Below are positions 14,377 to 60,652 of a stretch of DNA of 64,000 nucleotides, in pieces (within the stretch, counting starts at the first letter, position 1; each line of letters starts with the position of its first letter). Source of the stretch: Streptomyces sp. B1I3 (GTDB taxonomy: Bacteria; Actinomycetota; Actinomycetes; Streptomycetales; Streptomycetaceae); the NCBI RefSeq assembly GCF_030816615.1, contig NZ_JAUSYD010000001.1:3162001-3226000 (forward strand). Reading direction: 5' to 3'. Below the pieces are notes generated by a model. That model was not told the origin of the DNA and did no database searches. It saw only the letters and a list, made by a program, of their open reading frames with translations. The translations under genes were made by a program, and so were the position numbers.

Positions 14377-14805
14377 GGACGTCTCCCCTCGGTCCGGAAG
14401 CCGGCACTGTCGGGAGACCGACTCGGCCGGGACACAGCGGGGCGCTGTGCTTCCTGTTACCGCGTACTGCGTCAGATGGCTGAAAAGCGTCACTCTTACG
14501 ACAGGGAACGCGCCCTGGATGCTTATCGGGTGGGCCCCTCCGCGCCCGATCCGTTCAGCGATGCGCCGAATATCCCGCACGAGCGCCTCAGGCTGCGCGC
14601 TGTGCAGGAGCTCGGGCGGGAACCCGGCGAAGACGCCGTGACCGGTTTTCGCCCTGCTCCGACGGGACGTGCCGATCATCGGGCCCCCGGCCGAAAGGGA
14701 CACCCCGATCGGACGGGGCCTGCCATGGGACGGGGCTCCTGCCCGCCGTGCGGGGCCGGGAGGCCGGAGCAGTCGGGGTCGGATCAGGACGGAACCCGGT
14801 TCGGA
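14377..14805. other. Intergenic region between hypothetical gene and DUF4328 gene
   Basis: 429 bp without a supported gene. It includes the promoter region of the hypothetical gene and a drop in GC content around 14450-14520 relative to its surroundings. Near its end is one copy of the direct repeat described at 14779-14820. No tRNA or clear terminator hairpin is seen. Confidence 0.5.
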
Positions 14806-50048: not shown

Positions 50049-50933
50049 TCAGCCGCCGAGGATCTCGCGCGCCAGCTTGGCGGTCTCGGTCGGCGTCTTG
50101 CCGACCTTCACGCCGGCGGCCTCGAGGGCCTCCTTCTTGGCGGCGGCGGTGCCGGAGGAACCGGAGACGATGGCGCCCGCGTGGCCCATGGTCTTGCCCT
50201 CGGGGGCGGTGAAGCCCGCGACGTAACCGACGACCGGCTTGGTGACGTTCTTCGCGATGTAGTCGGCCGCGCGCTCCTCGGCGTCGCCGCCGATCTCGCC
50301 GATCATCACGATGAGGTCGGTGTCGGGGTCCGCCTCGAACGCCGCGAGGGCGTCGATGTGCGTGGTGCCGATGACCGGGTCGCCACCGATGCCGACGGCG
50401 GACGAGAAGCCGATGTCACGGAGCTCGTACATCATCTGGTAGGTCAGCGTGCCGGACTTGGACACGAGACCGATGCGGCCGGGCTTGGTGATGTCGCCCG
50501 GGATGATGCCGGCGTTCGACTGGCCGGGGGTGATCAGACCGGGGCAGTTCGGGCCGATGATCCGGGTCTTGTTGCCCTTCGAACCGGCGTACGCCCAGAA
50601 GGCGGCCGAGTCGTGGACGGCGATGCCCTCGGTGATCACGACGGCGAGCGGGATCTCGGCGTCGATCGCCTCGACGACGGCGGCCTTCGCGAAGGCCGGC
50701 GGCACGAAGAGGACCGACACGTCGGCGCCCGTCTTCTCCATCGCTTCCTTGACGGAGCCGAATACGGGTACCTCGGTGCCGTCGAAGTCGACGGACGTGC
50801 CCGCCTTGCGCGGGTTCACGCCACCGACGATGTTGGTGCCGTCGGCCAGCATGAGCTTGGTGTGCTTCATGCCCGTGGCGCCGGTCATCCCCTGGACGAT
50901 GACCTTGCTGTCCTTGGTGAGGAAGATAGCCAT
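50049..50933 (-). CDS. sucD: Succinyl-CoA synthetase alpha subunit
   Basis: A 294-residue subunit that carries the phospho-histidine intermediate of succinyl-CoA synthetase. CoA-binding motif [13 protein letters not shown], substrate region [12 protein letters not shown], and active-site His in [15 protein letters not shown] are present. It begins 21 bp after the sucC stop and forms the sucCD operon, ending at a 23-bp hairpin. Part of the TCA cycle with mdh and sdhCDAB in this window. Confidence 0.97.
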
Positions 50934-50954
50934 GGTGTTGGAGTCCCTCGTCCC

Positions 50955-52136
50955 TTACTTCGCAGCCGCGGCGAGCTCGGCGGCCTTGTCGGCCGCGCCG
51001 TCCATGGTGTCCACACGCTGCACGAGCGGGTGGTTGGCGTCGGAGAGGATCTTGCGACCCAGCTCCGCGTTGTTGCCGTCGAGGCGCACGACCAGCGGCT
51101 TGGTGACGTCCTCACCCTTGGACTTGAGCAGCTCCAGGGCCTGGACGATGCCGTTGGCGACCTCGTCGCAGGCGGTGATGCCACCGAAGACGTTGACGAA
51201 GACGGACTTGACGTCCGGGTCGCCGAGGATGATCTCCAGGCCGTTCGCCATGACCTCTGCGGAGGCGCCGCCACCGATGTCCAGGAAGTTGGCGGGCTTC
51301 ACGTTGCCGTGGTTCTCACCGGCGTACGCGACGACGTCCAGGGTCGACATGACCAGACCGGCACCGTTACCGATGATGCCGACCTCGCCCTCGAGCTTGA
51401 CGTAGTTGAGGTTCTTGGCCTTGGCGGCCGCCTCGAGGGGGTTGGCCGCGGCCTTGTCCTCGAGCGCCTCGTGGCCGGGCTGACGGAAGTCGGCGTTCTC
51501 GTCGAGAGACACCTTGCCGTCCAGCGCCAGGATGCGGCCGTCCTTGGTCTTCACCAGCGGGTTGACCTCGACGAGGAGCGCGTCCTCGGCGACGAAGGTG
51601 TCCCACAGGGTCACCATGGCCTCGGCGACACCCTCGGCCACCTCGGCCGGGAACTTCGCCTGGGCCACGATCTCGCGGGCCTTCTCGATGTCCACGCCGT
51701 CGACAGCGTTGACCGGGACCTTCGCGAGGGCCTCGGGGGTCTTCTCCGCGACCTCCTCGATGTCCATGCCGCCCTGCACCGACGCCATGGCGAGGAAGGT
51801 GCGGTTGGTGCGGTCCAGGAGGTACGAGACGTAGTACTCCGCCTCGATCTCCGGGGAGAGCTCGGCGATCATCACCTTGTGGACCGTGTGGCCCTTGATG
51901 TCCATGCCGAGGATGTCGGTCGCGCGAGCGACCGCCTCATCCGGGTCTGCCGCCAGCTTCACGCCACCGGCCTTGCCTCGGCCACCGACCTTCACCTGCG
52001 CCTTGACGACTGACTTGCCGCCCAGCCGCTCGGTCGCCTCGCGGGCTGCCTCAGGCGTGTCGATCACTTCACCGGCCAGCACCGGTACACCGTGCTTGGC
52101 GAAGAGGTCCCTCGCCTGGTACTCGAACAGGTCCAC
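50955..52136 (-). CDS. sucC: Succinyl-CoA synthetase beta subunit (ADP-forming)
   Basis: A 393-residue ATP-grasp subunit. The nucleotide-binding domain has [18 protein letters not shown] and [11 protein letters not shown]; the metal site and substrate region has [21 protein letters not shown]-terminal motifs include [12 protein letters not shown] and [11 protein letters not shown]. Full-length. ATG at 52136. First gene of the sucCD operon; about 400 bp upstream has no gene but carries repeats. Confidence 0.97.
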
Positions 52137-52544: not shown

Positions 52545-53813
52545 TCATCGGCCGGGCTCCGGTATCGGCAGGGGCCGTTTCTCGAGCGCCGCCGCCATGA
52601 CCGCCGGAAACAGATCCGGCGTACAGGCGAAGGCCGGCGCGCCGAGCGCTCCCAGCGCCGCGGCGTGCTCCCGGTCGTAGGAGGGCGCGCCCTCGTCCGA
52701 GAGGGCGAGCAGGGTCACGAACTGCACACCGGACGCCGTCATCGCGGCGGCGCGCCGGAGCATCTCGTCCCGGATACCACCCTCGTAGAGATCGCTGATG
52801 AGCACGACGACGGTGTCCGCCGGGCGGGTGATCTTCGACTGGCAGTAGGCGAGGGCACGGTTGATGTCCGTACCGCCGCCGAGCTGCGTGCCGAACAGCA
52901 CGTCGACCGGGTCGTCGAGCCGGTCGGTGAGATCGGCCACGGCCGTGTCGAACACCACGAGCCTGGTCGCCAGGGTGCGCATGGACGCGAGCACCGCTCC
53001 GAAGACGGAGGCGTACACGACCGAGGGGGCCATGGATGCCGACTGGTCGATGCAGAGGATGACGTCCTTCTTCACGGACCGGCCGGCTCGCCCGTACCCG
53101 ACGAGGCGCTCGGGGACGACCGTGTGAGCTCCGTCCCCTCCGGGAAGGGGCAGGTAGTTCCTGAGGTTGGCCCGGATCGTGCGGTCCCAGTCGATGTCCC
53201 GGTGGCGCGGCCTGGCCGCGCGGACGGAGCGGTCCAGGGCACCGGTGACCGTCGCCCTGGTCCGGGCGGCCAGGCGGCTCTCCAGATCATCGACGACCTT
53301 GCGCACGACGGCCCGGGCGGTTTCCCTCGTCGTCTCGGGCATGGCCTTGCTGAGCGAGAGCAGTGTGCCGACCAGGTGGACGTCCGGTTCCAGCGCCTCC
53401 AGCATCTCCGGTTCCAGCAGCAGCGCGGACAGCCCGAGACGGTCGATGGCGTCCCGCTGCATGACCTGGACGACGGAGCCGGGGAAGTACGTACGGATGT
53501 CCCCGAGCCAGCGGGCGACGGACGGGGCGGACGCGCCGAGCCCGGCCGAACGCTCGGCCCCTCCGCGGCCACCCGGTTTCTTCCCGCCGCCGTAGAGGTC
53601 GGTCAGCGCGCCGTCCATCGCGACGTCGCGGCCGGTGAGTGTGTACCCCGTGCTCTCGGCGCCGTCCGCGCCGAGCACCATGCGCCAGCGCCGCAGCCGC
53701 TCGTCCTCGGACGCGACCGCTGCCCTCTCCTTCTCCTCCCCCGGCCGTTCCCCGATGCCTGTCCTGCCGGTCGTCATCGGCCCATCCCCCGTGTCCGTCC
53801 TGCCGGTGGTCAT
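52545..53813 (-). CDS. von Willebrand factor A domain protein, MoxR partner
   Basis: A 422-residue protein. The N-terminal 240 residues are helical and unassigned; the C-terminal vWA domain has an intact metal-ion-dependent adhesion site: Asp256, Ser258 and Ser260 in DQSAS, Thr315 in GGGTDI, and Asp341 in LISDLYEGG. Such proteins act with a MoxR AAA+ ATPase as adaptor for the client. The first codons are duplicated (see repeat), giving two possible ATG starts, 53813 and 53777. The first overlaps the DUF5682 stop by four bases. It ends the MoxR-DUF5682-vWA operon. Client unknown. Confidence 0.85.
   Translation of the reverse strand: MTTGRTDTGDGPMTTGRTGIGERPGEEKERAAVASEDERLRRWRMVLGADGAESTGYTLTGRDVAMDGALTDLYGGGKKPGGRGGAERSAGLGASAPSVARWLGDIRTYFPGSVVQVMQRDAIDRLGLSALLLEPEMLEALEPDVHLVGTLLSLSKAMPETTRETARAVVRKVVDDLESRLAARTRATVTGALDRSVRAARPRHRDIDWDRTIRANLRNYLPLPGGDGAHTVVPERLVGYGRAGRSVKKDVILCIDQSASMAPSVVYASVFGAVLASMRTLATRLVVFDTAVADLTDRLDDPVDVLFGTQLGGGTDINRALAYCQSKITRPADTVVVLISDLYEGGIRDEMLRRAAAMTASGVQFVTLLALSDEGAPSYDREHAAALGALGAPAFACTPDLFPAVMAAALEKRPLPIPEPGR
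53742..53813. repeat. 36-bp tandem duplication at the vWA gene start
   Basis: Two 36-bp copies, each beginning with an in-frame ATG and coding for MTTGRT-type dodecapeptides. Each copy has a purine-rich stretch before its ATG, so either may be used for initiation. Confidence 0.7.
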
Positions 53814-56125
53814 CGCGCACCTGTCCGATCCGCTCCGGTGCCGCTCCCGAGCAGCAGCCGGAGCACGGGCACCACGGCGGCCGCCCGCTCCTCGTCGAGT
53901 CCGGCGCCGAAGCCCGGTGCCGCCGCCTCCACCTCGCCCCGCGCCCGGTCCGGGTCCCGGCCGCGCCGGACGAGTTCGCCCAAGGCGCGCCGCGTGCCCG
54001 GCTCGTAGGCGGAGAACGTGCGGCGCAGAAGAGGCAGTACGTCGGTGAACGTCCCGGCCGGTACCCCGGTCAGCCAGGCGTCGACGAGTCCCAGGAGCCG
54101 CTCGTCGTGGACGAGCAGCATGCCGCCGCCGGCCGCCCCGCCGAAGAAGCCCTCGATCCACGCCGCCGCCTCGGCCGGCGGTGTGCCCGGTGAGAGGGCC
54201 AGTCCCATCAGCCGCGCCGCGCCGTCGCCGGCGAGCCGTCCCTCGTCCAGGAGCAGGCGCGTGGCGCGGCCCCGGATCACGCCCGCGACCGTGTCCCTGG
54301 CCGCCAGCGTGCCCAGGACTCCGGCCCAGCGCTCGCGCAGCCCGTCCGCCGGTACGGCGCCGGCCAGCAGCCCCACCGCCGTGTGCACGCCGTCCACCTG
54401 CCGGTGCACCTCCGCCGCGGCGTCCGCGTCGAGACCGGCGCAGGCGGACGGCAGACCCACGCAGACGCGGTCGGCGAGGCCGACGGCCACCTCTCCCAGG
54501 GCCGCCGTGCCGGTGGAGCGCACGTCCCCGTACCGCAGGGAGCGGGCCAGAGCGGGCAGCGCGTCGGCGAGGTGGCCCACGTCCGTGTCGAGGGCCGCGC
54601 GGTCGGCGAGGGCCTTCATCACGACGGGCAGCGCATCGGACAGCCCGGCCAGGAGACACCGCTCGGCGAGCGCCGTGACCTCGGCGAGGGAGGCCGCCGC
54701 CACGGCGTCCGCCGCACTCCGGGCGGTCGCCGCGGAGAGCACGGTGGTGCCCCACACCCCGGCTTCCGCGATGCGTACGGACAGCTCCGGCTGCCAGCGC
54801 AGCCGCCAGGTCTCCCGGAACGTACCCGTGCTGCCCCTGCCCGCCGCGGGTTCGCCCCAGCCGATGTCCAGGAGCCGCAGCCGGTGCAGCAGCCTGCTGC
54901 GGGCCGCGTCGGTGTCCTTGCGCAGGTCGAGCTCCAACTCGCGCTCCTGCGCGTCGGGTCTGAGCCTCAGGGTGCGCTGCTGTCCGGTCAGGTCGCGCTG
55001 CAGTGGGACGGCGGGGGCGGTGTCCGGCACCTCGCCGAGGGTCTCGCCCACGACGAGCCGGTCCCGGACGAGGTGGAGCGGTACGTCGGAGCCCTCGCAC
55101 ATGACGGCCCGGACCGCGTCGGTGGTCTCGGCCAGCCCGGCGGCCGGGCGGCCCCTCAGTGCGGCCAGCGTGCCGGCGAGCCGCACGGCCTCGATGACGT
55201 GGGCGGAGGAGACGAACCGGTCCTCGTCCCGCAGCAGCCCGGCGACTTTCGTCATCCAGCGCTCGACGGTCCGGTCGGGCGCGGCGAAGAGGTGGCCGTA
55301 CCACCCGGGTGATTCGATCCCGGCGCCGTAGCCGCTGTGCCGGGCGAGCCGGCGGTGCGTCCACGGGACCCACGTCAGCTCCGTCCTGACCTTGGGCATT
55401 CCCTTGAGGAGGGCCTTGTCGGCGGCGACCGTCGTGCGCGCGGCCAGCGCGGGAACGTGCCAGGCGCCACAGACCACGGCGACGTCGTCCCCGTACTCCT
55501 TGCGGGCGGAGCGCAGGCGGAGGCGCATGCAGGCCTCCCTGACGGCGTCCCGGGGGTGCCCACCGTCGCCGTACGCCTCACGCAGGGCCGTCATGGCCTC
55601 GGCGAGCGCGGCGAACGGGGCCCACGGGCCGGCCGGGGAACCGTCGGCCGACCGGTGCTCGACCACGTCCTCCCACCAGCGCTCGGGGTCGTCGTAGCCG
55701 GCGGTTCGGGCGAGGATCCCGATGGGGTCGATGCCCCGGTCGTCCTCCGGGGCGCCCTCCCCCCGCTCCGTCATGGCCAGGGAGTGGGCGGCCGGCAGGT
55801 CGATGAAGCGCACCGGTGTGCCGTGCGCCAAGGCCCAGCGGATCGCCACCCACTCGGGGGAGAACTCGGCCATCGGCCAGAACGCGGCGTGACCCGGGTC
55901 GTCCACCGCGTGGGCGAGGAGCGCGACCGGCGGACGCATCCCCTCGTCGGCGGCGAGCGCCAGCAGCGCGTCGCCCTCGGGCGGTCCCTCGACGAGCACG
56001 GCACGCGGCCGTACGGATTCGAGGACGGCAAGGACCGCGCGCGCTGATCCCGGCCCGTGGTGACGCACCCCGAGCAGCAGCGGTCCCTCGGGCGCCCGCC
56101 CCGGGCCCGGCGCGGGGGGCGTCAC
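53810..56125 (-). CDS. DUF5682 family protein
   Basis: A 771-residue soluble protein, recognised as DUF5682. The N-terminal 250 residues resemble the TraB/TIKI/EreA-ChaN superfamily by eye: LLGVRHHGPGS (residues 17-27), VLVEGPP (43-49) and VVCGAWHVPAL (217-227) give conserved His and Glu at the spacing of that hydrolase fold. The remaining 500 residues are helical repeats rich in Ala/Leu. GTG start overlaps the MoxR stop by four bases. Probably a component or client-processing enzyme of the MoxR-vWA system. The hydrolase assignment is inference. Confidence 0.75.
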   Translation of the reverse strand: MTPPAPGPGRAPEGPLLLGVRHHGPGSARAVLAVLESVRPRAVLVEGPPEGDALLALAADEGMRPPVALLAHAVDDPGHAAFWPMAEFSPEWVAIRWALAHGTPVRFIDLPAAHSLAMTERGEGAPEDDRGIDPIGILARTAGYDDPERWWEDVVEHRSADGSPAGPWAPFAALAEAMTALREAYGDGGHPRDAVREACMRLRLRSARKEYGDDVAVVCGAWHVPALAARTTVAADKALLKGMPKVRTELTWVPWTHRRLARHSGYGAGIESPGWYGHLFAAPDRTVERWMTKVAGLLRDEDRFVSSAHVIEAVRLAGTLAALRGRPAAGLAETTDAVRAVMCEGSDVPLHLVRDRLVVGETLGEVPDTAPAVPLQRDLTGQQRTLRLRPDAQERELELDLRKDTDAARSRLLHRLRLLDIGWGEPAAGRGSTGTFRETWRLRWQPELSVRIAEAGVWGTTVLSAATARSAADAVAAASLAEVTALAERCLLAGLSDALPVVMKALADRAALDTDVGHLADALPALARSLRYGDVRSTGTAALGEVAVGLADRVCVGLPSACAGLDADAAAEVHRQVDGVHTAVGLLAGAVPADGLRERWAGVLGTLAARDTVAGVIRGRATRLLLDEGRLAGDGAARLMGLALSPGTPPAEAAAWIEGFFGGAAGGGMLLVHDERLLGLVDAWLTGVPAGTFTDVLPLLRRTFSAYEPGTRRALGELVRRGRDPDRARGEVEAAAPGFGAGLDEERAAAVVPVLRLLLGSGTGADRTGAR

Positions 56126-57234
56126 GCGGACGCCTCACGGCAGGCGCGGTAGAAGTCCTTCCAGCCGTCGCGCTCCCGGACCACCGTCTCCACGTACTCC
56201 TGCCAGACCACGCGGTCGGCCGAGGGGTCACGGACGACCGCGCCGAGGACACCGGCCGCCACATCGCCGGGCCGCAGGACGCCGTCGCCGAAGTGGGCCG
56301 CGAGCGCGAGGCCGCCGGTGACGACGGAGATGGCCTCGGCCGTGGACAGCGTCCCGGAGGGGGACTTGAGCCTGGTGCGGCCGTCCGTGGTGACCCCGTC
56401 GCGCAGTTCGCGGAAGACGGTGACGACCCGTCTGATCTCGGTGATGCCGTCGGGAGCCGGAGGCAGGTCGAGCGCACGCCCTATCTGGTCGACACGCCGG
56501 GACACGATGTCCACCTCGGCCTCGGGTGTCGCCGGCAGGGGCAGCACGACGGTGTTGAACCGGCGGCGCAGGGCGCTGGAGAGCTCGTTGACCCCGCGGT
56601 CGCGGTCGTTGGCCGTAGCGATGAGGTTGAAGCCGCGGACCGCCTGGACCTCCTGTCCCAGCTCGGGGATGGGAAGCGTCTTCTCGGACAGGATCGTGAT
56701 GAGCGCGTCCTGCACGTCGGCGGGGATGCGGGTGAGCTCCTCGATCCGGGCGGTCATGCCCTCGGCCATGGCCCGCATGACCGGACTCGGCACCAGTGCC
56801 TCGCGACTGGGGCCGTGGGCCAGCAGTTGCGCGTAGTTCCAGCCGTGGCGGACGGCCTCCTCGGGGGTGCCGGCGGTCCCCTGGACGAGCAGGGTCGAGT
56901 CCCCGCTGACCGCGGCGGCGAGGTGCTCGGACACCCACGTCTTGGCGGTGCCCGGCACGCCCAGGAGCAGCAGCGCCCGGTCGGTCGCGAGCGTGCTGAC
57001 GGCGACCTCCACGAGGCGGCGCGGGCCTACGTACTTGGGTGTGATCAGCGTGCCGTCCGCGAGCGTGCCGCCGAGCAGATAGGTGGCTACGGCCCACGGC
57101 GAGAGCTTCCAGCGGGCGGGCCTCGGCCGGTCGTCCGCGGCGGCGAGGGCCGTGAGTTCGTCGGCGAAGGCGTGCTCGGCGTGCGGCCTCAGGGCCTCGC
57201 CCCCGGCAGGTGCGGTGTCCGCGAACGCGGTCAT
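56122..57234 (-). CDS. MoxR-type AAA+ ATPase
   Basis: A 370-residue AAA+ ATPase of the MoxR group, chaperone-like ATPases that remodel or activate protein clients with a vWA partner. Walker A is GVPGTAKT (92-99); the Walker B region is ARIEELTRIP with Glu165-Glu166 instead of the usual Asp-Glu; sensor 1 is Asn209 in ATAND; arginine finger near Arg225 in ALRRRF. ATG at 57234 follows GGAGGGGGATCC. It heads an operon overlapping DUF5682 and vWA genes, and diverges from the SWIM gene across 241 bp. Confidence 0.9.
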   Translation of the reverse strand: MTAFADTAPAGGEALRPHAEHAFADELTALAAADDRPRPARWKLSPWAVATYLLGGTLADGTLITPKYVGPRRLVEVAVSTLATDRALLLLGVPGTAKTWVSEHLAAAVSGDSTLLVQGTAGTPEEAVRHGWNYAQLLAHGPSREALVPSPVMRAMAEGMTARIEELTRIPADVQDALITILSEKTLPIPELGQEVQAVRGFNLIATANDRDRGVNELSSALRRRFNTVVLPLPATPEAEVDIVSRRVDQIGRALDLPPAPDGITEIRRVVTVFRELRDGVTTDGRTRLKSPSGTLSTAEAISVVTGGLALAAHFGDGVLRPGDVAAGVLGAVVRDPSADRVVWQEYVETVVRERDGWKDFYRACREASA

Positions 57235-57475
57235 GGATCCCCCTCCAGATCGTCGACCCGATGTGGTCCCACCGTGCACCACGGCACTGACAATCGGCCC
57301 CGAAGGCGTCCCAGGTGGGTGGTGCCGGTCATGTGCTTCATCTGGTCTCCCCGCGTGACGGCCGCGTGCGCTCGACCGCGGGCAAGCGAGCGGGCCCGCC
57401 GCGGTCAGGAGTTGGAGAACGGGAAGAAGCACAGGTCGGAGCCGGTTGTCAGTGGGGCGCCCTACCGTCGTACCC

Positions 57476-58861
57476 ATGCTGCTATCTCACGGGGGAGAAA
57501 CGCCGCGCACCGCCGGGTCCGTGGTGCGCTGGACGGTGGGGCAGGTCCTGGCGCTGGCCCCTGACGCGGCGTCACGCTCGGCGGGGAGCGGGCTAGGCGT
57601 GCCGCGCCGGTGGTCGGACGCGGGCTGCGGCGATTCGGGCATGGTGTGGGGCGTGTGCGCGGGAGGCGGCGGCACGCCCTACCGCACGGTGATCGACACG
57701 AAGGCGCCCGCGTACCGGTGCGGCTGCCCCAGCCGGCAGCTCCCGTGCGAGCACGCGCTGGGGCTGCTGCTCCTCTGGGCCTCCGGCGACCCGGCGGTGG
57801 CCTCGGGCGACGCCCCCCACTGGGCCGCGGAGTCACCGGCGGCCGGCCGCGCCCCGGAACCGGCACGGCCGGACGCCCCCGCCGCCGGCCCCGCGGACCC
57901 CCAGGCCGCCAGGCGGCGCGCGGAACGGCGCGCCGAGCGGATCACCGGGGGCGCGCTGGAGCTGGAACAGCGCCTCGCCGACCTGCTGCGCGGCGGCCTC
58001 GCGACGGCCGGCGGACCGGGGCGCACGCTGTGGGAGGAGACCGCGGCCAGGATGGTGGACGCACAGGCACCCGGACTCGCGGGCCGGGTGCGCGAGTTGG
58101 GTGCGATCCCGGACTCCGGCGCGGGCTGGCCGGTGCGGCTGCTCGAGGAGTGCGCGCTGCTGCATCTGCTGGACTCGGCGTGGCTCCGGCTCGACCGGCT
58201 GCCGGAGCCACTGGCGGCGACGGTCCGCACCCGGGTCGGGCTGACGGCCCCCGCCCGGGGTCCGGCGATCCGCGACCGGTGGCAGGTCCTCGCGCAGTAC
58301 GACACCCCGGACGGCAAGATCGTCACCCGCCGCAGCTGGCTGTACGGCGAGGTGTCGGGCCGCACGGCCCTGCTGCTCTCCTTCGGGGCGGCGGGGCGCT
58401 CCCCCGGCCATGACCTGCCGGTGGGGGCGACGGTCGACGCCGAGGTGACGGCGTATCCGGGCGGCGGCCGGCTCAGGGCCGACCTCGGACGGCAGTTCGG
58501 CACGCCCTCCGTGACGGCGGCCCCGCCTCCGGGCGGCACGACGGCCGATGCCGTCGCCGCGTACGGGCGCGCCCTGCGGGACGATCCCTGGCTGGGCTCC
58601 TGGCCGGCCATCCTGCGCGAGGTCGTACCCGTGCCGGCCGGGGACGGCTGGCAGCTGGCCGGCGCGACGGACGGGGAAGCCCTGCCGGTCGCCCCCTGGG
58701 CACTGTCCCGGCCGGGTCTGTGGAAGCTCGTCGCCCTCTCCGGAGGCCGTCCGGTGACGGTGTTCGGCACCTGCGGGCACCAAGGCTTCGATCCTCTCGC
58801 GGCCTGGTGCCGGGAGTCGTCCGACGGCATCGTCGCGGGCGCACCCGTGGCGCTCCGCTGA
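57476..58861 (+). CDS. SWIM zinc-finger protein
   Basis: A 461-residue protein with a SWIM finger, C-x-C-x6-C-x-H, at Cys82, Cys84, Cys91 and His93 (YRCGCPSRQLPCEHALG). The rest is helical with an Arg/Glu-rich region about residues 125-160 and no catalytic motif. SWIM domains usually bind DNA or proteins. The ATG at 57476 has no Shine-Dalgarno site; TACCGT at 57463-57468 suits a leaderless start. It diverges from the MoxR gene and precedes a DUF5691 gene, a combination conserved in Streptomyces as I recall. Confidence 0.85.
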   Translation: MLLSHGGETPRTAGSVVRWTVGQVLALAPDAASRSAGSGLGVPRRWSDAGCGDSGMVWGVCAGGGGTPYRTVIDTKAPAYRCGCPSRQLPCEHALGLLLLWASGDPAVASGDAPHWAAESPAAGRAPEPARPDAPAAGPADPQAARRRAERRAERITGGALELEQRLADLLRGGLATAGGPGRTLWEETAARMVDAQAPGLAGRVRELGAIPDSGAGWPVRLLEECALLHLLDSAWLRLDRLPEPLAATVRTRVGLTAPARGPAIRDRWQVLAQYDTPDGKIVTRRSWLYGEVSGRTALLLSFGAAGRSPGHDLPVGATVDAEVTAYPGGGRLRADLGRQFGTPSVTAAPPPGGTTADAVAAYGRALRDDPWLGSWPAILREVVPVPAGDGWQLAGATDGEALPVAPWALSRPGLWKLVALSGGRPVTVFGTCGHQGFDPLAAWCRESSDGIVAGAPVALR

Positions 58862-58945
58862 CGCGGCCCCGAGCCCCGGCCCGCACGTGCCGACCGCATT
58901 CCCCGACCCGTGATCCGACTCTTTCCCGACGACCGGAGGGAACCG

Positions 58946-60652
58946 ATGCCCGACACCGCCCCCGTCTCCCGTTCCTGCACGCCCGCCGAGCCCGACAGCC
59001 CTGTGCGCACTCCGTGGGAAGAGCTGGTCACGTCGGCACTGCTCGGCACGGACCGGCGCCCGCCGAGGAGGGACGGCGACCCGGCGGACGGGCCGACGGC
59101 GCTGCTGGACGCCGCGGCTCTCCACACCGTGCGGCGCCGGGCCGCACTGCGGCCGGCCACCGCGGCCGCCGCACCTCCGGCGGCTCCCGCCGATCCCCGG
59201 CCGCCGCTCCCCGCCGCCGCCCGTCGCCGGCTCGCCCAACTCCTCGCCGACCGTTCCGCTCCTCCCGTCGGCGGACGGCGGGGGACGGCTCCCGATCTCA
59301 CCGAGCTCATCCCCCAGTGGCTCGCCACCGCCGGTGCCCACGGCTTCCGAGCGCCGGCCGAGCTGCTGCCCGCACTGCTGGACGCCGCCAGAGCACGCAC
59401 CGACCTGCGCCCGCAGGCACTGGCGTTCGCCGGGCCGCGCGGGCTCTGGCTGGCCGGCCTGAACCCGGACTGGAGGTTCGCGCTGCGCGCCTCGGCCGGC
59501 GGTGCGCGGCGGCCCGGTACCGATGACCCGGAGGCGGTGCGCCGGCTCTGGGAGGAGGGGCTCTTCGCGGAACGGGTCGCGCTGCTCGGAGCCGTACGGG
59601 CGCGGGATCCCGGTGCCGCGCGGGCGCTGCTCGCCTCCACATGGCCCACCGAGCGGGCCGAGGACCGGCTGATGTTCCTCGATTCCCTGCGGGCCGGCCT
59701 GACCGGTGACGACGAGGCGTTCCTGGAGGAGGCCCTCTCGGACCGCAGCCGTAATGTCCGCGCCACGGCTGCCGAACTGCTGTCCGCGCTGCCGGGCTCG
59801 GCGCTCGCCGGGCGGATGGCGGACCGCGCCACCTCCTGTGTGAGCCCCGACCGCACGGGGCCCGCCGTCTCCGTCGCCGTGGAGGCACCGCACGAGTGCG
59901 ATGCCGCCATGCAGCGCGACGGCGTGGTCCCGGTTCCGCCGTCGGGGCGGGGCGAACGGTCGTGGTGGCTGGGTCAGCTGGTGGAGGCCACCCCCCTGGG
60001 CGCCTGGCGGGAGCGGTTCGGCGGCCGTACGGCTCAGGAGGTCGTCGCCCTGCCCGTCGCCGACGACTGGGGCGGCGAGCTCCATGCCGCCTGGTGCCGC
60101 GCGGCGGTACGCCAGCGGGATCCCGACTGGGCGCGCGCGCTGCTCGGCGCCCCCTCCACGCCCCCGGCGAGCGGCCCCGGGACGGTGTCCCTCGCGGAGC
60201 GGGCGCAGCTCCTCGCCGTGCTGCCTCCTGCCGAGCGGGCTGTGTGGGTGGCCGGCTTCATAGCGGCGCACGGGCTGTCCGAGGCGTTTCAGCTGCTGGG
60301 TGTCTGCCCCGTGCCCTGGGCGGGGCCGCTCGGCCGCTCGGTGGTGGACGCGCTGGACATCGCGCGGGACGCGGGGAGCTACCCGTGGAGTTTCAGCGGC
60401 GTGATGGGCCTCGCCGAGCGCTGTCTGAACCCTGCCGAGGCGGACCGGCTCGAGGTGCTCACCACCACGCCGGACGAGCCGGAAGGCGCGTCGCCCGGGG
60501 CGGGCGGCTACTGGTCGGAGGCGTTCCAGCGGCTGGTCTCCACGTTGCGCCTCCGCGCGGCCATGGACGCGGAACTGACCCCGGAGCCGGACGGGGAGCC
60601 GACCGAGCCGGACGGGGAGCCGGCCCCGGAGCCGACCGAGCCGGAGGCGTAG
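58946..60652 (+). CDS. DUF5691 family protein
   Basis: A 568-residue protein, recognised as DUF5691. It begins PVRTPWEELVTSALLGTDRR, a family-type start, and continues as helical HEAT-like repeats (for example LAGRMADR, LSDRSRNVRATAAELLSAL). A glutamate/proline tail (TEPDGEPA repeated) ends it. No enzyme motif. ATG at 58946 follows GGAGGGAACCG. It lies 84 bp after the SWIM gene and opposite the MoxR-DUF5682-vWA operon; a joint role with these is likely but unproven. Confidence 0.83.
   Translation: MPDTAPVSRSCTPAEPDSPVRTPWEELVTSALLGTDRRPPRRDGDPADGPTALLDAAALHTVRRRAALRPATAAAAPPAAPADPRPPLPAAARRRLAQLLADRSAPPVGGRRGTAPDLTELIPQWLATAGAHGFRAPAELLPALLDAARARTDLRPQALAFAGPRGLWLAGLNPDWRFALRASAGGARRPGTDDPEAVRRLWEEGLFAERVALLGAVRARDPGAARALLASTWPTERAEDRLMFLDSLRAGLTGDDEAFLEEALSDRSRNVRATAAELLSALPGSALAGRMADRATSCVSPDRTGPAVSVAVEAPHECDAAMQRDGVVPVPPSGRGERSWWLGQLVEATPLGAWRERFGGRTAQEVVALPVADDWGGELHAAWCRAAVRQRDPDWARALLGAPSTPPASGPGTVSLAERAQLLAVLPPAERAVWVAGFIAAHGLSEAFQLLGVCPVPWAGPLGRSVVDALDIARDAGSYPWSFSGVMGLAERCLNPAEADRLEVLTTTPDEPEGASPGAGGYWSEAFQRLVSTLRLRAAMDAELTPEPDGEPTEPDGEPAPEPTEPEA

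Follow-up and report, generated by a model that had tools for sequence, protein, structure and literature searches.

A conserved YehL-kind MoxR-vWA cassette of Streptomyces with a predicted TIKI-like hydrolase domain and putative DNA-damage-type promoters

What does a MoxR ATPase do when it is encoded together with a vWA protein, a DUF5682 protein, a SWIM zinc-finger protein and a DUF5691 protein? This question is raised by five genes of Streptomyces sp. B1I3, which lie at positions 52545-60652 of the 64,000-nucleotide (nt) stretch analysed here (contig NZ_JAUSYD010000001.1, positions 3,162,001 to 3,226,000), hereafter termed the window. Our answer, to which we give somewhat less than even credence, is that the cassette would be a DNA-damage-induced remodelling and hydrolysis machine, in which the MoxR-vWA pair works with a TIKI-fold DUF5682 protein and is aimed by an exchangeable SWIM-DUF5691 module. 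What is new here is a YehL-kind variant of the MoxR-vWA systems with a predicted hydrolase and a predicted DNA-damage-type promoter.

The cassette is built of two halves that face away from each other. The reverse strand carries the genes of the vWA protein (52545-53813, of the VWA_CoxE family and YehP-like), of the DUF5682 protein (53810-56125, YehM-like, with a GTG start) and of the MoxR AAA+ ATPase (56122-57234, starting at 57234), which overlap by 4 base pairs (bp) at each junction. Across a divergent promoter region of 241 bp (57235-57475), the forward strand carries the genes of the SWIM protein (57476-58861) and of the DUF5691 protein (58910-60652). The sequence-only reading had described this layout, and the open reading frames (ORFs), strands and coordinates agree with it. 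Pfam matches were found for MoxR (AAA_5, 2.5e-37), DUF5682 (3.3e-290), the vWA protein (VWA_CoxE, 5.9e-57) and DUF5691 (1.5e-179), and the MoxR query sequences used in our searches ended at 57237, one residue more than the gene. The SWIM protein scores slightly below the Pfam SWIM cut-off (18.0 versus 19.6 bits) and retains an intact C-x-C-x6-C-x-H motif, of which the four Cys/His ligands are kept in 15 of 16 aligned sequences, the region being absent from the remaining row. The motif DxSxS/T/D, of the metal-ion-dependent adhesion site (MIDAS) type, is legible in the vWA protein. The likeness of DUF5691 to HEAT proteins fared less well, its sole basis being a Pfam HEAT match under the cut-off (13.4 versus 23.5 bits). 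NCBIfam provided no name for any of the five proteins, and its few MoxR matches were far under the cut-offs.

These five genes are conserved as one unit. Among the 80 Streptomycetaceae loci that are the top matches to the window DUF5682 among the matches listed, the five genes are complete in 62 of the 63 loci of at least 18.9 kb, and in 65 when all 80 are counted. Loci with fewer than five genes are shorter contigs, except L147, the single long locus without DUF5691, in which the SWIM match stands at the edge of the stretch, about 6 kb from MoxR, and the DUF5691 gene may lie outside the stretch examined. The source DUF5682 is at most 85% identical to its closest named Streptomyces relatives among the matches listed, and DUF5691 was found in 143 of 150 genomes of the genus, so that it is near-core. 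At the scale of the Actinomycetota, DUF5682 is present in 21 of 296 genomes, and DUF5691 exceeds its cut-off in 18, all of them within those 21 (three matches below the cut-off were excluded from this count). Since DUF5691 and DUF5682 co-occur across genomes and share a locus, the arrangement is not a matter of chance. All five parts stand together in 17 of the 18 further Actinomycetota main loci (L056-L073), three of the DUF5691 genes (L069, L071, L072) being seen by the Pfam profile and missed by the pairwise search, and the eighteenth (L066) is a 4.4-kb contig on which DUF5682 and vWA are present. The two halves are divergent in the eight Streptomyces loci of this set, like in the window, and the nine other full loci have a single strand with the order SWIM-DUF5691-MoxR-DUF5682-vWA. 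The same gene order can be found in Deinococcus and Hymenobacter, where a small additional gene separates MoxR from DUF5682, and also in Rhizobium and Methylosinus; the Methylosinus vWA gene lacks an annotation and is split across three frames. The five-gene set was detected by profile in Methylobacterium, Nonomuraea and Nocardia, and a Fusobacterium record holds MoxR, DUF5682, vWA and a partial SWIM match, DUF5691 not being found in it. The unit therefore recurs in Actinomycetota outside the Streptomycetaceae, in Deinococcus, in Hymenobacter and in Alphaproteobacteria. This bears out the earlier proposal of one MoxR-vWA system with regular SWIM and DUF5691 partners; the neighbourhood check that it called for was run, and the SWIM and DUF5691 genes were not usually elsewhere.

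Two side observations concern these distant copies. The Methylosinus copy with the split vWA gene (L168:11184-12319) belongs to a Methylosinus trichosporium plasmid and has transposase genes within the same 20-kb stretch. Five actinobacterial loci of one family, f29 (L067, L068, L069, L070 and L072), have a DUF5691 frame of only about 310-350 residues, which covers the first part of the profile.

The reverse-strand half has well-known relatives by name, if not by function. MoxR is 38% identical to E. coli YehL over 364 positions, DUF5682 is 29% identical to YehM over 557 aligned positions, and the vWA protein is 35% identical to YehP over 373 amino acids; YehM is itself a DUF5682 protein by Pfam. 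Both this similarity and the local MoxR-DUF5682-vWA gene structure place the window ATPase in the YehL subfamily of MoxR ATPases, which is named in the portion of PMC3893208 consulted. The E. coli set yehL-yehM-yehP-yehQ has the same MoxR-DUF5682-vWA order, homologous proteins, and a SWIM finger in YehQ. It differs from the window in that all of its genes are on one strand, in that the DUF4132 protein YehI adjoins it, and in that no relationship could be detected between YehQ and the window SWIM protein or DUF5691; the idea that YehQ is a fused SWIM-DUF5691 protein was rejected on this ground, and a relationship between DUF5691 and DUF5682 was rejected by comparison. The yehL-yehQ region (yehLMPQ) is covered over at least 80% in 5162 of 5426 E. 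coli genomes. It is absent from the reduced strain DGF-298, as far as the consulted part of PMC10652928 describes it, and is therefore dispensable. No paper containing 'DUF5682' or 'DUF5691', nor 'MoxR' together with 'DUF4132', was found in the open-access literature searched, nor any study of a YehL-kind cassette, the yeh genes occurring there as list entries. The sequence-only reading, which knew of no established function for the set, overlooked the E. coli yehL, yehM and yehP homologues and the named subfamily. The cassette is real and conserved, and it is uncharacterised as far as this literature shows.

Other subtypes tell which parts belong together. In six loci (L074 and L076-L080), a pairwise search showed DUF5682 and vWA joined in a single frame next to a YehL-like MoxR; two of these loci (L074, L076) show the fusion by Pfam as well. 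SWIM and DUF5691 are fused in a single frame in L073 and L167. DUF4132-containing sets occur in L081 and L170, and the source genome itself has a second MoxR-vWA locus (L004, genome positions 2006001-2026000) with a divergent DUF5682 paralogue (profile E 1.6e-43). From these subtypes we infer a core of MoxR, DUF5682 and vWA, to which an exchangeable module of SWIM and a partner is added. A further SWIM-DUF5691 fused frame (L065:5781-9146), in which the SWIM finger is undetected, has a one-mismatch promoter motif at about 6555, and this gene may begin without a SWIM finger.

The expression of both halves may be connected to the same signal. When 71 of the 80 divergent regions were aligned with that of the window (nine were excluded for unusable SWIM or MoxR matches or spacing), two conserved TTGTCAGTG blocks were found, facing opposite ways. 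The mycobacterial promoter that is independent of LexA/RecA is given as tTGTCRgtg - 8 nt - TannnT in the section of PMC5656591 that treats it. The motif toward SWIM (57446-57468, forward strand) reads TTGTCAGTG-GGGCGCCC-TACCGT, stands 7 nt ahead of the ATG and is a full match to this consensus of the PafBC type. The motif toward MoxR (57271-57293, reverse strand) reads TTGTCAGTG-CCGTGGTG-CACGGT and is one base off, the first base of the -10 element departing from TannnT. Our site pattern accepted C or T at this base, and strict TannnT retains the SWIM side only. The window contains just two sites, both in this intergenic region, and with one mismatch allowed, 3 of 100 window shuffles reach two sites. 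Both sites are present in 65 of the 72 intergenic regions, the MoxR-side one alone in five and neither in two. Over the 80 loci, 143 sites fall within the cassette span (two in 67 loci, one in 9, none in 4), and the flanking DNA has 1 site in the 813,716 bases searched. Among 14 other MoxR-vWA/DUF5682 loci, nine have an upstream site facing the operon (L004, where it lies at 14470-14492 on the reverse strand, L076 and L078-L084), at about 6 kb upstream in four of them, and no such site was found in L074, L075, L077, L085 and L176. For the six fusion loci taken apart, the motif lies about 6 kb upstream in four, and this distant position suggests a longer operon.

The same motif is shared with DNA-repair genes. 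The 7.5-Mb source genome contains 30 sites (L212-L241), 16 with strict TannnT and 14 with CannnT, versus 2 for a reversed control pattern. For the 28 sites other than those of the cassette, the longest ORF beginning within 250 nt was scanned with Pfam (E at most 1e-5), and some of these ORFs may be wrong, this DNA being GC-rich. Nine of the 28 precede repair or topology ORFs, namely RecA, a UvrB-type protein (UvrB_inter domain), RuvC, a DinB-type polymerase, DNA polymerase I, NAD ligase, the A subunit of gyrase/topoisomerase IV, an Lhr helicase and RecD2, so the motif is common to repair genes of the same genome, RecA included. The cassette thus resembles a PafBC-type regulon (PMC5656591, in the part seen) in its promoters and in the company of RecA, RuvC and DinB-type genes; it differs in that PafBC control in Streptomyces is unproven, going by the parts of PMC9380542 at hand, and in that the cassette itself was found in no paper. 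Streptomyces do encode PafBC homologues according to the same parts of PMC9380542, and PafBC is also treated in the consulted portions of PMC11804915 and PMC8151990. As a side observation, MoxR1 and MoxR2 appear, at -1.6 and -1.7, among the proteins changed in M. smegmatis without pafBC in the portion of PMC5656591 consulted.

What would such a response produce? The fold predicted for the N-terminus of DUF5682 points to a hydrolase. AlphaFold gave the whole protein a mean pLDDT (predicted local distance difference test score) of 82. Most matches of the whole-length fold search were helical-repeat proteins, its three best Z rows being already a Tetrahymena chain, and the N-terminus (residues 1-345) was therefore folded alone, also with a mean pLDDT of 82. 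Its top rows are three entries of a Tetrahymena complex IV chain (Z 10.5-10.6, 4.6-4.7 Å over 186-189 residues), followed by ChaN (2g5g, Z 8.5), HopBA1 (5t09, 8.2) and EreC (6xcq, 7.2), then by 2qgm, 2rad and 3b55 (Z 7.0-7.1). Six of the nine best structural rows of this predicted model are thus ChaN, HopBA1, EreC, 2qgm, 2rad and 3b55, and 5T09, 3B55 and 2G5G are assigned to the TIKI superfamily in the portion of PMC6254334 examined, where active members have a catalytic 2His/2Glu set and an Arg. The motifs are those expected of it, with a first His after the first strand, a Glu, an Arg and a C-terminal G-x-x-H. H22, E46, R196, G220 and H223 of DUF5682 show no variation across 20 diverse sequences, and the Gly of the first G-x-x-H is kept in 18 of the 20. 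G19-x-x-H22, E46, R196 and G220-x-x-H223 run parallel, in order, to G38-x-x-H41, E67, R228 and G249-x-x-H252 of YbaP, a TraB-family protein. Profile comparison by hhalign of DUF5682 with TraB/GumN gave an E-value of 1.6e-4 (probability 50) and paired R196..H223 with R228..H252 unaided, versus 0.11 and 0.53 for unrelated control pairs and 0.17 for Ere with TraB; the comparison of DUF5682 with Ere gave 0.028, with the conserved Arg paired. We predict from structure and motifs that the N-terminus (about residues 1-260, 55346-56125, reverse strand) has a TIKI/EreA/ChaN/TraB-like hydrolase fold and is probably a peptidase or an esterase. It is set apart from that superfamily by escaping the Pfam TraB and Erythro_esteras models, by its fusion to a helical part and by its tie to an AAA+ ATPase. 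The suggestion that DUF5682 could be an effector gains support from this predicted fold. On the side, the helices of residues 266-345 (55091-55330) resemble AAA+ lid domains in most rows from the tenth on (Z at most 6.8), a likeness of the model that is possibly just a common helical arrangement.

Put together, the computed evidence consists of homology, gene neighbourhood, gene fusions, the fold, the conserved residues, the promoter motif and its presence before repair genes; induction, enzymatic activity, complex and target are what we infer from it. The core of the machine would consist of a MoxR AAA+ ring, a vWA adaptor and DUF5682, with its TIKI-like hydrolase domain carried on a helical stalk; owing to the vWA fusions, DUF5682 would be a fixed subunit rather than a one-time client. 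SWIM and DUF5691 would form a second, exchangeable module that brings this core to its targets, which may be nucleic acid or nucleoprotein, by way of the SWIM finger. Upon DNA damage, an activator of the PafBC type would read the two facing promoters, so that both halves are made together, and MoxR would spend ATP either to present the target to the active site of DUF5682 or to open that site. For a repair regulon, such a machine might serve to clear or process proteins on damaged DNA, among other possible roles. The broadest form of the proposal, which we consider unlikely as it stands, would be a widespread machine of the DNA-damage response: a MoxR-vWA motor would power a TIKI-fold protease or esterase that removes proteins from damaged DNA, SWIM would read the nucleic acid, and E. 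coli would have its own version, with another SWIM protein and with DUF4132 next to it.

Several observations weigh against this proposal. As to the fold, a Foldseek search by itself found no PDB structure matching DUF5682 at E of 0.001 or below, and the Pfam models TraB_PrgY_gumN (PF01963) and Erythro_esteras did not match it at E of 0.1 or below. The Z scores of 7-8.5 are modest, the tool itself cautioning that values under 8 may reflect a mere common arrangement, and the highest Z values belong to the Tetrahymena chain 8b6h_DQ. This chain could not be classified by the TraB/GumN profile, because the profile matched no TIKI structure at all by sequence; the DUF5682 and SWIM profiles likewise had no significant match to solved structures by sequence. 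Enzymes of the Ere/RRSP type have a second catalytic Glu two positions ahead of the first His, as defined in the consulted part of PMC6254334. DUF5682 has Val20 there instead, and nine aligned TraB/GumN proteins have no Glu at this position either. As to the promoters, 7 of the 28 genome sites precede ORFs that lack a clear repair tie (a PhoH protein, a sigma factor, a HEPN protein, pentapeptide and TPR proteins, an oxidoreductase and a transporter), and 12 precede ORFs without a Pfam match. According to the relevant part of PMC9380542, conservation of the M. smegmatis PafBC motif in S. venezuelae was not seen in an initial search, whereas our motif data from other species point the opposite way. 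A tandem WYL gene pair of the source genome (genome positions 6463600-6464760) may encode PafB and PafC. The full motif is absent from all 11 actinobacterial five-gene loci outside the Streptomycetaceae; a right-facing site with one or two mismatches is present within the stretch searched in six of them (L064, L065, L068, L070, L073, L173), at most 60 nt before the homology start of the first gene in L065, L073 and L173. No convincing damage box was found before the operons of other phyla. This search covered ten other loci, in stretches of 120-1039 nt before the first gene. LexA boxes of the alpha or the actinobacterial type were absent, and the matches were limited to an E. coli-type box in Nocardia with one mismatch and a Deinococcus-type site with three mismatches; the window intergenic region has none of these boxes at two mismatches.

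These observations leave room for other explanations. One is that MoxR-vWA acts here as a classical maturation chaperone, that DUF5682 is its client, receiving a metal or being remodelled once before it works as a lone hydrolase, and that SWIM and DUF5691 are delivery factors. NorD is the vWA partner of NorQ, and the closest solved relatives of the window MoxR by sequence are midasin, then NorQ. As covered in the available part of PMC3893208, other MoxR proteins such as NorQ and CoxD mature dedicated complexes, and RavA-ViaA, proposed to aid Nuo complex maturation, is likewise a MoxR and vWA pair at work, although RavA-ViaA and NorQ-NorD belong to other MoxR subfamilies. We find the client model somewhat unlikely, given that DUF5682 is fused to vWA in several genomes and that none of the subtypes seen splits the trio, both of which fit a fixed subunit better. 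A housekeeping system of protein quality, for which the motif would be a general promoter element and not a DNA-damage one, would agree with the near-core distribution in the genus, with the 19 of 28 other sites that precede ORFs without a repair or topology tie, and with the lack of the full motif outside the Streptomycetaceae in those 11 loci. The match to the published DNA-damage consensus (PMC5656591, as far as consulted) and the fact that nine of the 28 ORFs encode repair or topology proteins speak against it, and we judge it quite improbable. The E. coli yeh neighbour region was once called molR, which would make the cassette a molybdenum-metabolism factor. That label also appears in the consulted section of PMC10652928, and the yehH/yehI-yehL neighbourhood would go with it, but the five-gene type does not include DUF4132/YehI and no molybdenum gene is annotated in the regions read (E. 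coli yeh and cassette copies of other phyla), which makes this explanation hardly credible.

The sequence-only reading had left a conflict or stress system possible, and the two parts of this claim went separate ways: the promoter evidence specifies stress as DNA damage, and conflict found no support in a near-core cassette without a convincing PADLOC match. There are predicted conflict systems with a MoxR-vWA pair at their core, and the portion of PMC7159879 consulted defines four ternary ones (VMAP, iSTAND, FtsH and beta-propeller), which share with the window a MoxR-vWA pair and a constant third protein. The third protein here is DUF5682, and the cassette is near-core, not patchy, in the genus. 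None of those four third components is among the Pfam matches of the five proteins, a bpMoxR match fell below its cut-off, and the main text of PMC7159879 does not contain 'SWIM', 'YehL' or 'DUF5682'. PADLOC gave partial weak matches only, the best being 16.8 bits (JetA, for the vWA protein) and 13.2 bits (IetA, for MoxR), and a pattern-based search of viral contigs found no cassette relative. An unannotated 'UNVERIFIED Bacteriophage sp.' record with MoxR-DUF5682-vWA was not accepted as proof of a phage copy. Some cassette copies are on plasmid records, one of them beside transposases; these records prove no mobility, because the plasmid collection includes chromosome-sized replicons. With DUF5691 in 143 of 150 genomes of the genus and yehLMPQ in 5162 of 5426 of E. 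coli, the distribution is not patchy there, and we rejected an anti-phage or inter-bacterial conflict system as very improbable.

Next to the vWA gene, and likewise on the reverse strand, lie succinyl-CoA ligase genes (50049-52136).

Nearly all complete E. coli genomes have a set of the YehL kind, which is also near-core in Streptomyces, yet no study of it was found in the open-access literature searched. The damage-induced machine that we tentatively propose makes two predictions that can be tested: DUF5682/YehM would be a hydrolase, for which candidate catalytic residues can now be named, and both Streptomyces operons would lie within a DNA-damage regulon. The 30 motif sites of the source genome further suggest a PafBC-like response in Streptomyces, whose existence PMC9380542 left open in the part consulted.

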